Part shown: positions 9,484 to 55,106 of the stretch, one piece after another | Position numbering within the stretch: the first letter of the stretch is position 1 | Layout of the letters: each line of letters opens with the position of its first letter | Assembly: GCF_900069005.2 (NCBI RefSeq) | Contig: NZ_LN831276.1 | Location: forward strand, 149,874-213,873 | Length of the DNA stretch: 64,000 bases | Reading direction: 5' to 3' | Origin: Paenibacillus sp. GM2 | Lineage (GTDB): Bacteria > Bacillota > Bacilli > Paenibacillales > Paenibacillaceae | Notes under the pieces: generated by a model | Database searches by the model: none | What the model saw: only the letters and a program-made list of their open reading frames with translations | What the model was told of the DNA's origin: nothing | Translations under genes and position numbers: made by a program

Positions 9484-9625
9484 AAACGCTTATTGGGCAA
9501 GTGAAGCTTGCTGTTTGTTTCATTGTTCATTGCTCGTTGCTCGCTGTGGCCCGAAACGTAAACGAAACTTGCTTCGTTGGTTGTTAATTATACGCTGCTC
9601 GCTGCTCGTCGGTTCGTTGTTCGTT
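9484..9625. other. GT-rich degenerate sequence leading into tandem repeats
   Basis: This stretch is rich in TTCGTTG and GCTCGTTGCTCG-like words on the plus strand. It grades into the 42-bp tandem array and shows no gene-like reading frame. Open frames through it are by-products of the repetition. Confidence 0.5.
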
Positions 9626-9771
9626 GTGCGTCGGGTTCGTTGTTCGTTGTTCACTTCGTCGATCGTTGTGCGTCGGGTTCGTTGTTCGTTGTTCACTTCG
9701 TCGATTGTTGTGCGTCGGGTTCGTTGTTCGTTGTTCACTTCGTCGATCGTTGTGCGTCGGGTTCGTTGTTG
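9626..9771. repeat. 42-bp tandem repeat array, about 3.5 copies
   Basis: Units begin with GTGCGTCGGGTTCG at 9626, 9668, 9710 and 9752. The first three are full 42-bp copies and the last is partial, with only single-base differences. Because 42 is a multiple of three, several frames stay open on both strands, but none has a ribosome binding site or a sensible protein composition. Confidence 0.9.
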
Positions 9772-9830
9772 AATCGTGCATTGACCGTTATTCACTCCGT
9801 TGCTCGTTTTTGCATCATTCGCTGTGCGTC

Positions 9831-10815
9831 TAACGAAACTACAGAACGCTATTTGAGCAAAAACAGCGCTGATATTTTTTTAACGAAACACCGTATCGTT
9901 ATTCAGGACAAATCGCCGCTTTGGAAGCCAATTTTGCTCCAATAACGATACACAGTTTCGTTAGAATCGGGGACTGTCCGTTGGAGCCCAAATAGCGATA
10001 CCACGTTTCGTTAGCGGTTGTGCCTCTACCCTAACGAAACTACAGAACGCTATTTGAGCAAAAACAGCGCTGATATTTTTTTAACGAAACACCGTATCGT
10101 TATTCAGGGTAAATCGCCGCTTTGGAGCCAATTTTGCTCCAATAACGATACACAGTTTCGTTAGAATCGGGGACTGTCCGTTGGAGCCCAAATAGCGATA
10201 CCACGTTTCGTTAGCGGTTATGCATCTAACGTAACGAAACTACCGAACGCTATTTGAGCAAAAACAGCGCTGATATTTTTTTAACGAAACACCGTATCGT
10301 TATTCAGGGTAAATCGCCGCTTTGGAAACCTATTTTGCTCCAATAACGATACACAGTTTCGTTAGAATCGGGGACTGTTCGTTGGAGCGCAAATAGCGAT
10401 ACCACGTTTCGTTAGCGGTTGTGCCTCTAACGTAACGAAACTACAGAACGCTATTTGAGCAAAAACAGCGCTGATATTTTTTTAACGAAACACCGTATCG
10501 TTATTCAGGGTAAATCGCCGCTTTGGAAGCCAATTTTGCTCCAATAACGATACACAGTTTCGTTAGAATCGGGGACTGTTCGTTGGAGCCCAAATAGCGA
10601 TACCACGTTTCGTTAGCGGTTGTGCCTCTAGCGTAACGAAACTACAGAACGCTATTTGAGCAAAAACAGCGCTGATATTTTTTTAACGAAACACCGTATC
10701 GTTATTCAGGACAAATCGCCGCTTTGGAAGCCAATTTTGCTCCAATAACGATACACAGTTTCGTTAAAATCCGGGACTGTTCGTTGGAGCCCAAATAGCG
10801 ATACCACGTTTCGTT
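9831..10815. repeat. Five tandem copies of the 183-bp ABB'A' palindromic element
   Basis: Copies run 9831-10013, 10032-10213, 10232-10414, 10433-10615 and 10634-10815, with an 18-19 bp linker (GCGGTTGTGCCTCTA-like). Each copy has two forward half-sites (TAACGAAAC, 11-bp gap, CGCTA or CGTTA) and two reverse ones. In copy 1 these start at 9831 (A) and 9881 (B), and end at 9963 (B') and 10013 (A'). A pairs with A' and B with B'. The array fills the gap between the phosphatase and metallophosphoesterase genes. Further copies lie at 16804, 38215, 38520, 54569 and 54924. Confidence 0.93.
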
Positions 10816-10861
10816 AGCGGTTGTGTGTCTTTCAAAAGCGGAAAGGGAGGAATGGTGTGAG

Positions 10862-15780: not shown

Positions 15781-16152
15781 CTATTTGACTCTCAGGTTCT
15801 TCGTGATAGATTCGCGCTCGTTCTTTGTCAGACTGCGGAATACAAGATCATAAGAATGATCGATCATCGCTTTCAGATCCGCAAGCGGAAGACTGCCGTC
15901 CACAATGACTGTATTCCAATGCTTTTTGTTCAAATGGTACCCTGCTATTACGCATTGATGCTGCTCCCGCAGGTTCTCGGCAATGATCGGATCGCATTTC
16001 AATGAGATGTTCACCGTGTCTTGCTGTCCTTGCTCGCTCAGTAGGGCGAACATCTTTCCCCCCACCTTCATGACGAGTGGCTCTGGACCAAACGGATAAT
16101 CCTGAACCGCTCCTTTTTTGGAGGTACAATAGGCACTCAGCTTGCTATACAC
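15781..16152 (-). CDS. MmcQ/YjbR-like protein
   Basis: This protein of about 123 residues matches the MmcQ/YjbR family (CyaY-like fold): KGAVQDYPFGPEPLVMKVGGKMFALL, the CDP segment, YHLNKKHWNTVIVDG and the late DHSYDLVFRSLTK. The GTG at 16152 is preceded by AAAGGAGAG and gives the family's usual start region. An ATG at 16236 would add 28 atypical residues. The molecular role of the family is poorly defined. It is monocistronic as far as I can see. Confidence 0.8.
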   Translation of the reverse strand: MYSKLSAYCTSKKGAVQDYPFGPEPLVMKVGGKMFALLSEQGQQDTVNISLKCDPIIAENLREQHQCVIAGYHLNKKHWNTVIVDGSLPLADLKAMIDHSYDLVFRSLTKNERESITKNLRVK

Positions 16153-16305
16153 AGGAATCTCTCCTTTATTTGAAAAAATAATGCTGTTGCTAATATACCA
16201 TGTTTGCTGAAAATATCGTATCATCTGTAAGTCCATCCTTCCCTATTATAGCGATTGCACTTCATAGACATGTAATCTATCCCATTCCTGCAAGTGAGGG
16301 GTAAT

Positions 16306-16803: not shown

Positions 16804-16986
16804 TAACGAAACTGGGGATTGCTATTGAGGCCAAAAAGGACTGCTGTAAATTGTAACGAAACTGGGGATCGCTATTGAAGCAAATATGCGGTCTGAAGCG
16901 GGGATTTCCCCTGAATAGCGATATTGAGATTCGTTAGGTTGTTTTCACCGCTGTTTATAGAGAAATAGCGATCTGCAGTTTCGTTA
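16804..16986. repeat. Single 183-bp ABB'A' palindromic element
   Basis: Half-sites start at 16804 (A) and 16854 (B); reverse half-sites end at 16936 (B') and 16986 (A'). Spacing is exactly 50/83/50, as in the 9.8-kb array, although sequence between the half-sites is largely different. It is about 170 bp upstream of the flavin reductase gene. Confidence 0.88.
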
Positions 16987-17153: not shown

Positions 17154-17765
17154 ATGCTAACGATTTACCCGGAAAATCAGGCGGAAAGAGACAATTATAA
17201 GCTGCTGATCGGCAGCATCATCCCGCGTCCTACAGCCTTTATTACAACACAATCCCATGCCGGTGTAGTAAATGCCGCTCCGTTCAGCTACTTCAATGTC
17301 GTCACCGCTGATCCGCCAATGATCTCTGTATCGATTCAACGGAAGCAAGGCGACTATAAGGATACTTCAAGAAATATCATAGAGACGGGAGAGTTTGTCG
17401 TTCATATCTCCGATGAGGATTATATTGAAGCGATCAATCAGACGGCCGCCAATCTGCCTGCTAATCAGAGTGAATTAGACTTAGCCAGGCTTACCACTGT
17501 TCCTAGCGTAAAGCTCAAAGTCCCCGGCATTGCCGAGGCCAAAATCCGCATGGAATGCGTACTGGAGAGAGCAATTGAACTGGGTGGAACTCCTTCATCC
17601 CCTACCTGCGACCTTATTATCGGCAGGGTCATCTGCTTCCATATCGAAGACGATCTGTACGAGAACGGCCGGATTGATGCCGAAAAGCTGAAGCCAGTCA
17701 GTCGTCTCGCCGGCAACAACTATTCGAAGTTGGGCGAGATCTTCGCTATTGCACGGCCGGAGTAA
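17154..17765 (+). CDS. Flavin reductase-like FMN-binding protein
   Basis: This 203-residue cytoplasmic protein matches the flavin reductase-like split-barrel family: IGSIIPRPTAFITTQS, NAAPFSYFNVVTADPPMISVSI, KDTSRNIIETGEFVVHI and a C-terminal KPVSRLAGNNYSKLGEIF. Family members bind FMN and act as NAD(P)H:flavin oxidoreductases or partners of monooxygenases. GAGGTG precedes the ATG. It stands alone, with a palindromic element upstream and a terminator downstream. Confidence 0.88.
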   Translation: MLTIYPENQAERDNYKLLIGSIIPRPTAFITTQSHAGVVNAAPFSYFNVVTADPPMISVSIQRKQGDYKDTSRNIIETGEFVVHISDEDYIEAINQTAANLPANQSELDLARLTTVPSVKLKVPGIAEAKIRMECVLERAIELGGTPSSPTCDLIIGRVICFHIEDDLYENGRIDAEKLKPVSRLAGNNYSKLGEIFAIARPE

Positions 17766-38160: not shown

Positions 38161-38716
38161 ACCTTTGCGCCTTCCAAGATTCTGCACATTAACTTGCTGA
38201 ACTCCAAATGATGCTAACGGAAATCACAGCCCTTATTTCGATGAAATAAGGCTATTTGAATTTCTAACGGAACTAGGGGACGTTATTTGATCCAAAACAA
38301 GGGTTTTTCCTTGGATCTTGCCTGAATAACGCACCTCAGTTCCGTTAGAATCTGCATCCTATTGATTTTAGCCCTATAACGGACTACATTTCCGTTAGAT
38401 CTCCAAATTTAGCTAATGCGCAGTTTCAACACTTTGCATTTGCGCCCCAGCTTCCGCACTTCACTAACCTTTGCGCCTTCCAAGATTCTGCGCATAATTT
38501 GCTGAACTCCAAATACTGCTAACGGAAATCACAGCCCTTATTTCGATGAAATAAGGCTATTTAAATTTCTAACGGAACTAGGGGACGTTATTTGATCCAA
38601 ACCAAGGGTTTTCCCTTGGTTTTTGCCTAAATAACGCACCTCAGTTCCGTTAGAATCTGCATCCTATTGATTTTAGCCCTATAACGGACTACATTTCCGT
38701 TAGATCTCCGAACTTA
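38136..38716. repeat. 306-bp tandem duplication containing the palindromic element
   Basis: The block starting GCGCCCCAGCTTCCGCACTT at 38136 recurs at 38442, an offset of 306 bp. The similarity runs through the element and into TCCGTTAGATCTCC. The duplicated unit therefore joins the tail of the 39-bp array to one ABB'A' element. Confidence 0.8.
38215..38702. repeat. Two ABB'A' palindromic elements, TAACGGAA variant
   Basis: Copies are 38215-38397 and 38520-38702, both 183 bp. Half-sites start at 38215 and 38265 and end at 38347 and 38397; the second copy has the same 50/83/50 spacing. All four arms carry TAACGGAA rather than TAACGAAA. A and A' share GGAAAT while B and B' share GGAACT, as expected if A pairs with A' and B with B'. 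Confidence 0.9.
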
Positions 38717-54568: not shown

Positions 54569-55106
54569 TAACGAAACTGGGAAGCGTTATTGGGGGCAAA
54601 AACGGCCTTCGGATATTTTAACGAAACTGACAATCGCTATTCCGGCTATTTCACCCTCTAAAGCTTGCATTTCCCGCCAATAACGATTCTGTAGTTTCGT
54701 TAGTTCTAAATTACCCTTGTTTTCGGGGAAATAGCGTTATGGAGTTTCGTTAGAAGGATCGGTGGCTCAGGGGAACAAACGTTGAAGCTCAGGTATAACG
54801 AGCTCTCCCCCCTGCGTATCCGCAGCAAGCAAGGCTTTGGGACGATGCTAGAGATTACCATCCCTATCGAAGAAGACCGGCATGGAAAATCCCGTCGAAC
54901 TTTTTTGGCCTTTACAGTAGTTCTAACGAAACTGGGAAGCGTTATTGGGGGCAAAAACGGCCTTCGGATATTTTAACGAAACTGACAATCGCTATTCCGG
55001 CCATTTCACCCTCTAAAGCTCGCATTTCCCGCCAATAACGATATATAGTTTCGTTAGTTCCAAATCCCCCTCGTTTTCGGGAAAATAGCGTTATGGAGTT
55101 TCGTTA
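54569..55106. repeat. Two ABB'A' palindromic elements
   Basis: Copies are 54569-54752 (184 bp) and 54924-55106 (183 bp). Half-sites begin at 54569 and 54619 and end at 54702 and 54752; the second copy has 50/83/50 spacing. All half-sites begin TAACGAAACT. They lie in the gap between the kinase and AraC genes, which converge. Confidence 0.92.
54784..54976 (+). pseudogene. Duplicated 3' fragment of the histidine kinase gene
   Basis: The frame encodes LKLRYNELSPLRIRSK and GFGTMLEITIPIEEDRHG, nearly identical to the last residues of the upstream kinase. The original stop is lost and the frame runs into the duplicated repeat. It has no start signal and only about 38 homologous codons, so it is a remnant of the tandem duplication. 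Confidence 0.85.

Follow-up and report, generated by a model that had tools for sequence, protein, structure and literature searches.

Dispersed four-site elements with helically phased spacing in Paenibacillus genomes are candidate DNA-wrapping sites

What maintains the near-constant internal spacing of a 183-bp intergenic palindrome, present in ten copies in a stretch of 64,000 nucleotides from Paenibacillus sp. GM2 (contig NZ_LN831276.1, positions 149,874 to 213,873; hereafter the window)? Each element carries four 21-bp sites of the form TAACG-N11-CGYTA (A, B, B' and A'), which start at about 0, 50, 112 and 162 of the element. Counted on both strands, the pattern matches the window 55 times where 0.10 matches would be expected, palindromic sites being counted twice. 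All ten copy starts named by a prior sequence-only reading of the window were recovered, one mismatch being tolerated in some sites (spacings below are distances between successive site starts).

9831 to 10013: quartet 1 of a five-copy array; sites at 9831, 9881, 9943 and 9993; 50/62/50
10032 to 10213: quartet 2 of the array; sites at 10032, 10082, 10143 and 10193; 50/61/50, 182 bp
10232 to 10414: quartet 3 of the array; sites at 10232, 10282, 10344 and 10394
10433 to 10615: quartet 4 of the array; sites at 10433, 10483, 10545 and 10595
10634 to 10816: quartet 5 of the array; sites at 10634, 10684, 10746 and 10796
16804 to 16986: lone quartet between a YjbR-domain ORF (15784-16236, minus strand) and a flavin-reductase-like ORF (17154-17762, plus strand)
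38215 to 38397: first of two quartets of the G6 subfamily (TAACGGAA), with one mismatch in its first site
38520 to 38702: second quartet of the G6 subfamily
54569 to 54752: quartet with a 22-base B' (one extra base inside), so that B to A' is 113
54924 to 55106: quartet; sites at 54924, 54974, 55036 and 55086; 50/62/50

The spacing, described before as nearly invariant, is exactly 50/62/50 (183 bp) in eight of the ten copies, but the copies at 10032 and 54569 deviate as listed; nine of the ten measure 182-183 bp, and the first array closes with a site that reaches 10816, one base beyond the 10815 given before. The neighbours of the elements are ordinary, judging by the nearest larger ORFs searched at the four loci: besides the two ORFs around the lone quartet, these are phosphodiesterase-like and calcineurin-like at the 9831 array; at 38215 they encode a transporter component and a family-95 glycosidase, and at 54569 a histidine kinase and an AraC-type regulator. 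Positions 9571-9790, immediately upstream of the array of five, are occupied by degenerate tandem repeats in which TTCGTTG / GTGCGTCGGG is frequent.

Ten copies at four loci, true as this is of the window, proved to be a local view of a family that numbers in the hundreds genome-wide and has relatives in another genus and two other families. Across the whole genome (5.85 Mb), the pattern gives 503 forward and 532 reverse matches, against 25 and 26 for a control in which it was read backward. The true excess is larger than this control suggests, because the control is imperfectly matched and because 137 of 139 genomes outside the Paenibacillaceae have at most 19 matches per strand, mostly fewer than 10 and often below their own control. 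The commonest inter-site distances in 1.18 Mb were 112, 50, 62 and 162, and the observation thereby withstands the genome-wide test of half-site distances that the prior reading had set for its own refutation. Only 23 perfect sites lay outside quartets in the same 1.18 Mb, and most of them look like pieces of broken quartets. In about 1.4 Mb, part of which was chosen for containing matches and from which eight bridging false quartets were removed, we counted 95 quartets at 52 loci, 84 of them exactly 50/62/50. Two contiguous 400-kb blocks held 21 and 17 quartets, and scaling these 38 per 800 kb to 5.85 Mb gives an expectation of about 280 copies in the genome. The intergenic location noted before was borne out: in 1.04 Mb, 58 of 61 quartets overlapped coding sequence, as predicted by a simple purpose-made gene caller, by 2% or less.

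Among 33 clustered elements, mean pairwise identity was 58.5%. One of the 33 was a false bridging quartet (L046:6083), which remained in the identity, first pairing and target-duplication tests; the aligned set (A2) is the 32 rows left once it was removed, and these align without gaps, which alone proves little since all rows had been picked for exact 50/62/50 spacing. Modules beyond the quartet are rare, with at most 2 of 90 flanks showing one at any single offset. Additional phased sites occur in one array of the GM2 genome (C10:1344301), and the G011 locus on its contig C1 that is orthologous to C10:1297283 of GM2 has five modules (50/62/50/49), the extra one lying in one arm and nearly in phase. 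Another dispersed repeat, about 200-360 bp long and with TTCAAAA...TTTTTGAA at its ends, lies right next to two quartets; it occupies L030:10178-10545 (about C10 1190180-1190550 of GM2) and about 7760-8010 of L033. BLAST matched it many times in G011 and G031, L030 gave no Rfam match, and the repeat looks unrelated to the quartet.

Elements could be followed in place through two related genomes, G011 and G031, which share synteny with parts of the window. At the 9831 locus each of the two carries a single copy, orthologous to quartet 5, against five in the window genome; the 16804 quartet is decayed in G011 and missing from G031. In a comparison of 400 kb that includes 13 element loci, G011 has an intact element at 6 of the 12 loci that could be anchored and G031 at 3 of 9, and of the lost loci some retain fragments of one to three modules and others have no recognisable remnant. 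Conversely, of seven pattern-found loci of Paenibacillus sp. D2_2 (NZ_CP133605.1, taken to be the same genome as G031) that overlap the examined stretches of the window genome, six have an intact partner there, and at one D2_2 keeps three of the four sites.

Where both copies were intact, the sites and the spacing between them had been conserved. Across 17 ortholog comparisons, not all independent and including two with a spacing change, identity was 0.92 in sites, 0.76 in spacers and 0.65 in flanks; gaps numbered 0, 2 and 76, a contrast that is partly built in because only pairs intact on both sides were compared and gaps are fewer in such pairs, although detection tolerated a spacing change of a few bases. 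When each of 11 loci contributed a single comparison (ten against G011 or G031/D2_2 and one against the Fux382 metagenome assembly), 831 of 924 site positions (90%), 811 of 1089 spacer positions (74%) and 1575 of 2433 flank positions (65%) were identical. Sites thus exceeded spacers (p = 9e-20, with the requirement for few site mismatches somewhat favouring conserved sites), and spacers exceeded flanks. Altogether, the conservation of sites and spacers and the rarity of gaps within orthologous elements indicate that some loci are inherited vertically and that sites and spacing are under purifying selection in place, which supports the earlier view of the element as a maintained structure rather than a passive repeat.

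What is conserved in the spacers became apparent from their base composition. Averaged over 46 loci and both halves, the AT fraction oscillates between about 0.2 and 1.0 along the element, with peaks near 22, 32, 72, 82 and 92. The best period of the central AT/GC alternation is 10.1 bp, a power that none of 2000 column shuffles reached, and at that pitch 50/62/50 corresponds to 5, 6 and 5 helical turns, with A and A' 16 turns apart. In orthologs, substitutions kept the AT or GC class more often in spacers (91 of 278) than in flanks (200 of 858; p = 0.002). Geometry is therefore conserved and individual spacer bases vary, as had been claimed, but the AT/GC pattern of the spacers is itself strongly conserved. 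This class makes up 36.7 of 66.6 raw bits of spacer information, and since that is only about half, bendability is not the whole story. The four sites of an element also resemble one another: base 6 is A in all four sites at 41 loci and G in all four at 6, with none of 47 loci mixed against 19.8 expected. The site centres are also polar with respect to strand, and at 20 of 47 loci all four have the same sign, against 3.2 expected by shuffling, a sharing that can be explained by common descent from a polar ancestor.

On the strength of these patterns, we consider it probable that the element is a duplex-DNA platform that a putative sequence-specific, oligomeric protein wraps into a compact particle. 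The 21-bp dyads would serve as docking sites, probably for a dimer, two of them pointing inward from each side across the central two-fold axis. At 5, 6 and 5 turns of about 10.1 bp, all four sites face the same side of the helix, and the AT-rich and GC-rich stretches that alternate with each turn could ease the bending of the intervening DNA round the protein. Because the elements are intergenic without a clear preference for promoters or gene ends, the role would most likely lie in a function of the host chromosome, be it local compaction, supercoil constraint or domain marking. The turnover of loci between relatives counts against the wrapping reading. As to the protein, the Myb-like RsfA was considered, a Myb site resembling TAACGG; all 39 of 39 genomes have it whether or not they carry elements, so that its presence does not follow theirs and is uninformative.

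Known architectural systems offer partial parallels. The sopC, parS and matS sites are short palindromes, some in tandem arrays at regular spacing, and are bound by architectural proteins. Our elements share with them palindromic sites at regular spacing, but differ in being dispersed in hundreds of copies, in setting two sites inverted against two others, and in inner bases that vary by lineage. A further parallel is with RemA and LrpC of Bacillus, for which wrapping by a ring or octamer has been proposed: according to PMC8481266, RemA forms octameric rings proposed to wrap DNA, and it protects 7-bp AT-rich repeats with 3 bp between them, so that the protected unit recurs about every 10 bp, against 10.1 bp here. 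The RemA sites described there are poorly conserved and lie upstream of target promoters, unlike the four strong 21-bp dyads at fixed spacing in many intergenic places found here. By analogy, RemA makes such wrapping plausible in this class, and we do not claim RemA as the protein.

The main rival to the wrapping reading, which we nevertheless regard as unlikely, is that the element is a non-autonomous, MITE-like transposon with two transposase sites per end, mobilised in trans, its geometry being a requirement of the transpososome. The ends of Mu, Tn7 and Tn552 carry several transposase sites, two of them facing inward at each end, and the element matches them in its inverted layout with two sites, hence terminal inverted repeats, at each end. 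Dispersed copies of common descent, the two unlike arms, the strand polarity and a very uneven distribution among species would all suit a transposon, as would two pairs of loci that are unusually alike (92%, 20 kb apart; 88.5%, about 2.1 Mb apart). However, the median best non-local identity between elements is 0.765, so recent spread is rare, and array units include flanking DNA: 19 of 52 loci are local arrays of two to five copies, with units of 149-1903 bp. Adjacent array copies are mostly 92-99% identical (60-85% in three measured pairs). In 1.04 Mb, 11 of 19 local tandem duplications carry a quartet, although just about 1% of this stretch consists of quartets.

Target duplications were not enriched among the 33 elements at offsets of 0-12 and lengths of 2-10, and no longer parent copy was found in 1.41 Mb, about a quarter of the genome; outside quartets, the same 1.41 Mb held six leftover site pairs and no facing A-B and B'-A' pairs within 12 kb. 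Two gaps of more than 1 kb between array copies contain a 241-residue ORF and an ORF that a database search showed to be DUF2268 protease-like, and no transposase was recognised there. Orthologs sit in the same place with sites more conserved than spacers, as a dead insertion would not. A transposon accounts for dispersal and patchiness, but not for the missing duplications, the lack of a longer copy in that quarter of the genome or vertical inheritance with purifying selection.

We think it improbable that the element is an operator, or acts close to promoters, for a single regulator that binds several sites. Operators of that kind often have their sites spaced by whole turns, and element polarity showed a weak link to the direction of co-directional genes (10 of 13 versus 4 of 13; p = 0.047), the expected direction being seen in 10 of 13 and 9 of 13. 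This link is post hoc and borderline, having been noticed before it was tested, and we make no claim of it. The placement of the loci argues against an operator: 19 are co-directional, 7 convergent and 6 divergent, against 377, 85 and 97 among all gaps of at least 50 bp, so that they follow the general intergenic distribution without a clear preference for promoters or gene ends, and 7 of 32 lie between convergent genes. No widespread gene family that might hint at a cognate protein recurs beside them either, the 1266 flanking ORFs giving only 10 small cross-species clusters, which join the close trio of genomes or one member of it, or two other sources, across species.

That the two arms pair into an RNA hairpin or a cruciform, the RNA half of the earlier suggestion of a nucleoprotein or RNA structure, is very doubtful. 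The consensus is palindromic at both site and element level, and single sites are near-perfect palindromes in three other genomes (G243, G266 and G382). Within elements, however, A/A' and B/B' pair at 80.4% against 79.9% for re-dealt partners (119 of 500 shuffles as high), the site covariation score is 0.124 against 0.113 shuffled (49 of 500 as high), and mirror pairing of the spacers, at 50.7% against 56.0%, was equalled or exceeded by all 500 shuffles. Pairing of sites in register (80%, against 32-41% in slid registers) is what any palindromic consensus must give, and 3 of 30 off-register slides reached z of 2.1-3.0. Base 6 moreover co-varies not only between A and A' but also between A and B, which are direct repeats and therefore not pairing partners. 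Rfam gave no match in the window and, at 12 further loci, only an unrelated tRNA (L112). With arm pairing no better than shuffled at sites and worse in spacers, we reject the hairpin and the cruciform; the dyad symmetry belongs to the consensus, as for a DNA-binding complex, and not to the single molecule. The nucleoprotein half of the suggestion gains indirect support from the helical phasing and the absent pairing covariation.

REP, BIME and REPIN repeats, BOX and bcr1 are likewise small, intergenic, palindromic and present in many copies per genome, and the hundreds of short palindromic intergenic repeats seen here, together with Y1 matches in site-rich G007 (14), G013 and G015 (2 each), recall REPINs moved by a RAYT (Y1) transposase; this is almost certainly not their origin, as PF01797 (Y1_Tnp) has no match in site-rich G000, G011, G012 and G031, G038 has 20 Y1 matches yet background site counts, the arms show no excess pairing and the spacing is conserved in place, and we reject it for the GM2 genome and three site-rich relatives provided that the gene is not missing from the assemblies. 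A CRISPR array was also discarded, the spacers of most one-way arrays (see below) being near copies of each other instead of differing. Phage and plasmid records gave no similarity to a 201-base query.

How far does the design extend beyond the species? Site counts range from background to hundreds both within the genus (40 genomes) and within the family (245 genomes of 19 genera); the genus-wide range is more what one would expect of a dispensable or selfish system than of a general function in the nucleoid, and so speaks against the wrapping reading. Among quartets at fetched loci, spacing was exactly 50/62/50 in 29 of 38 from named Paenibacillus, 3 of 3 from G051, 2 of 4 from G003 and 1 of 2 from G174. 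One-way arrays with sites 51-52 bp apart occur in G078, G187, G239 and G243, and a single 51/62/51 quartet was seen in G078 besides. Outside the family, 2 of 139 genomes are site-rich. One, G382, belongs to a second family, and its four fetched places are 51/62/51 or 51/61/51; among at least 69 sites listed, its 36 consecutive distances of up to 300 are 51 (19), 62 (7), 113 (6), 112 (2), 61 and 54. The other, G266, belongs to a third family and has mostly 41-bp one-way arrays, the closest likeness to sopC that we found.

Spacings elsewhere are thus mostly near whole turns (41, 51-52 and 61-62), and some outside the genus are not (45, 53 and 54); AT phasing in the arrays of other genera is clear in some and weak or absent in several. 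The inner bases vary by lineage, while TAACG/CGYTA, which the search pattern required, and the turn-quantised spacing stay. In G187 and G239, neighbouring arrays (L113 and L116) differ in inner sequence, with GATG beside GAAC or GGAA, which indicates that several specificities coexist in single genomes. A bolder proposal, which we advance tentatively, is that these are nucleosome-like wrapping sites of a new class, in which geometry and helical phase are inherited and sequence drifts, and in which docking specificity (TAACGAAAC, TAACGGAA, TAACGGAC, TAACGGCAC, TAACGGTGC, TAACGATG) may have switched repeatedly together with the putative protein in at least three families of Bacilli.

The impression that no description of the element existed held for the open-access literature searched, for Rfam at the loci searched and for phage and plasmid records; a literature match in PMC10343464 is in its matching passage a PCR primer. 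We rate the element as belonging among interspersed protein-site repeats and as not previously described in the literature covered. Short intergenic repeats of bacteria are usually ascribed to selfish elements or RNA hairpins, and in the present case comparative sequence by itself reveals in-place selection on the sites, their spacing and their helical phase. Should a protein indeed wrap the sites, about 280 places on one chromosome would be marked in advance for packing into compact nucleoprotein particles, and DNA wrapping encoded in bacterial sequence would be open to direct test. The genus includes both species rich in copies and species that lack them, a natural experiment for the function of the element and for finding its cognate protein.
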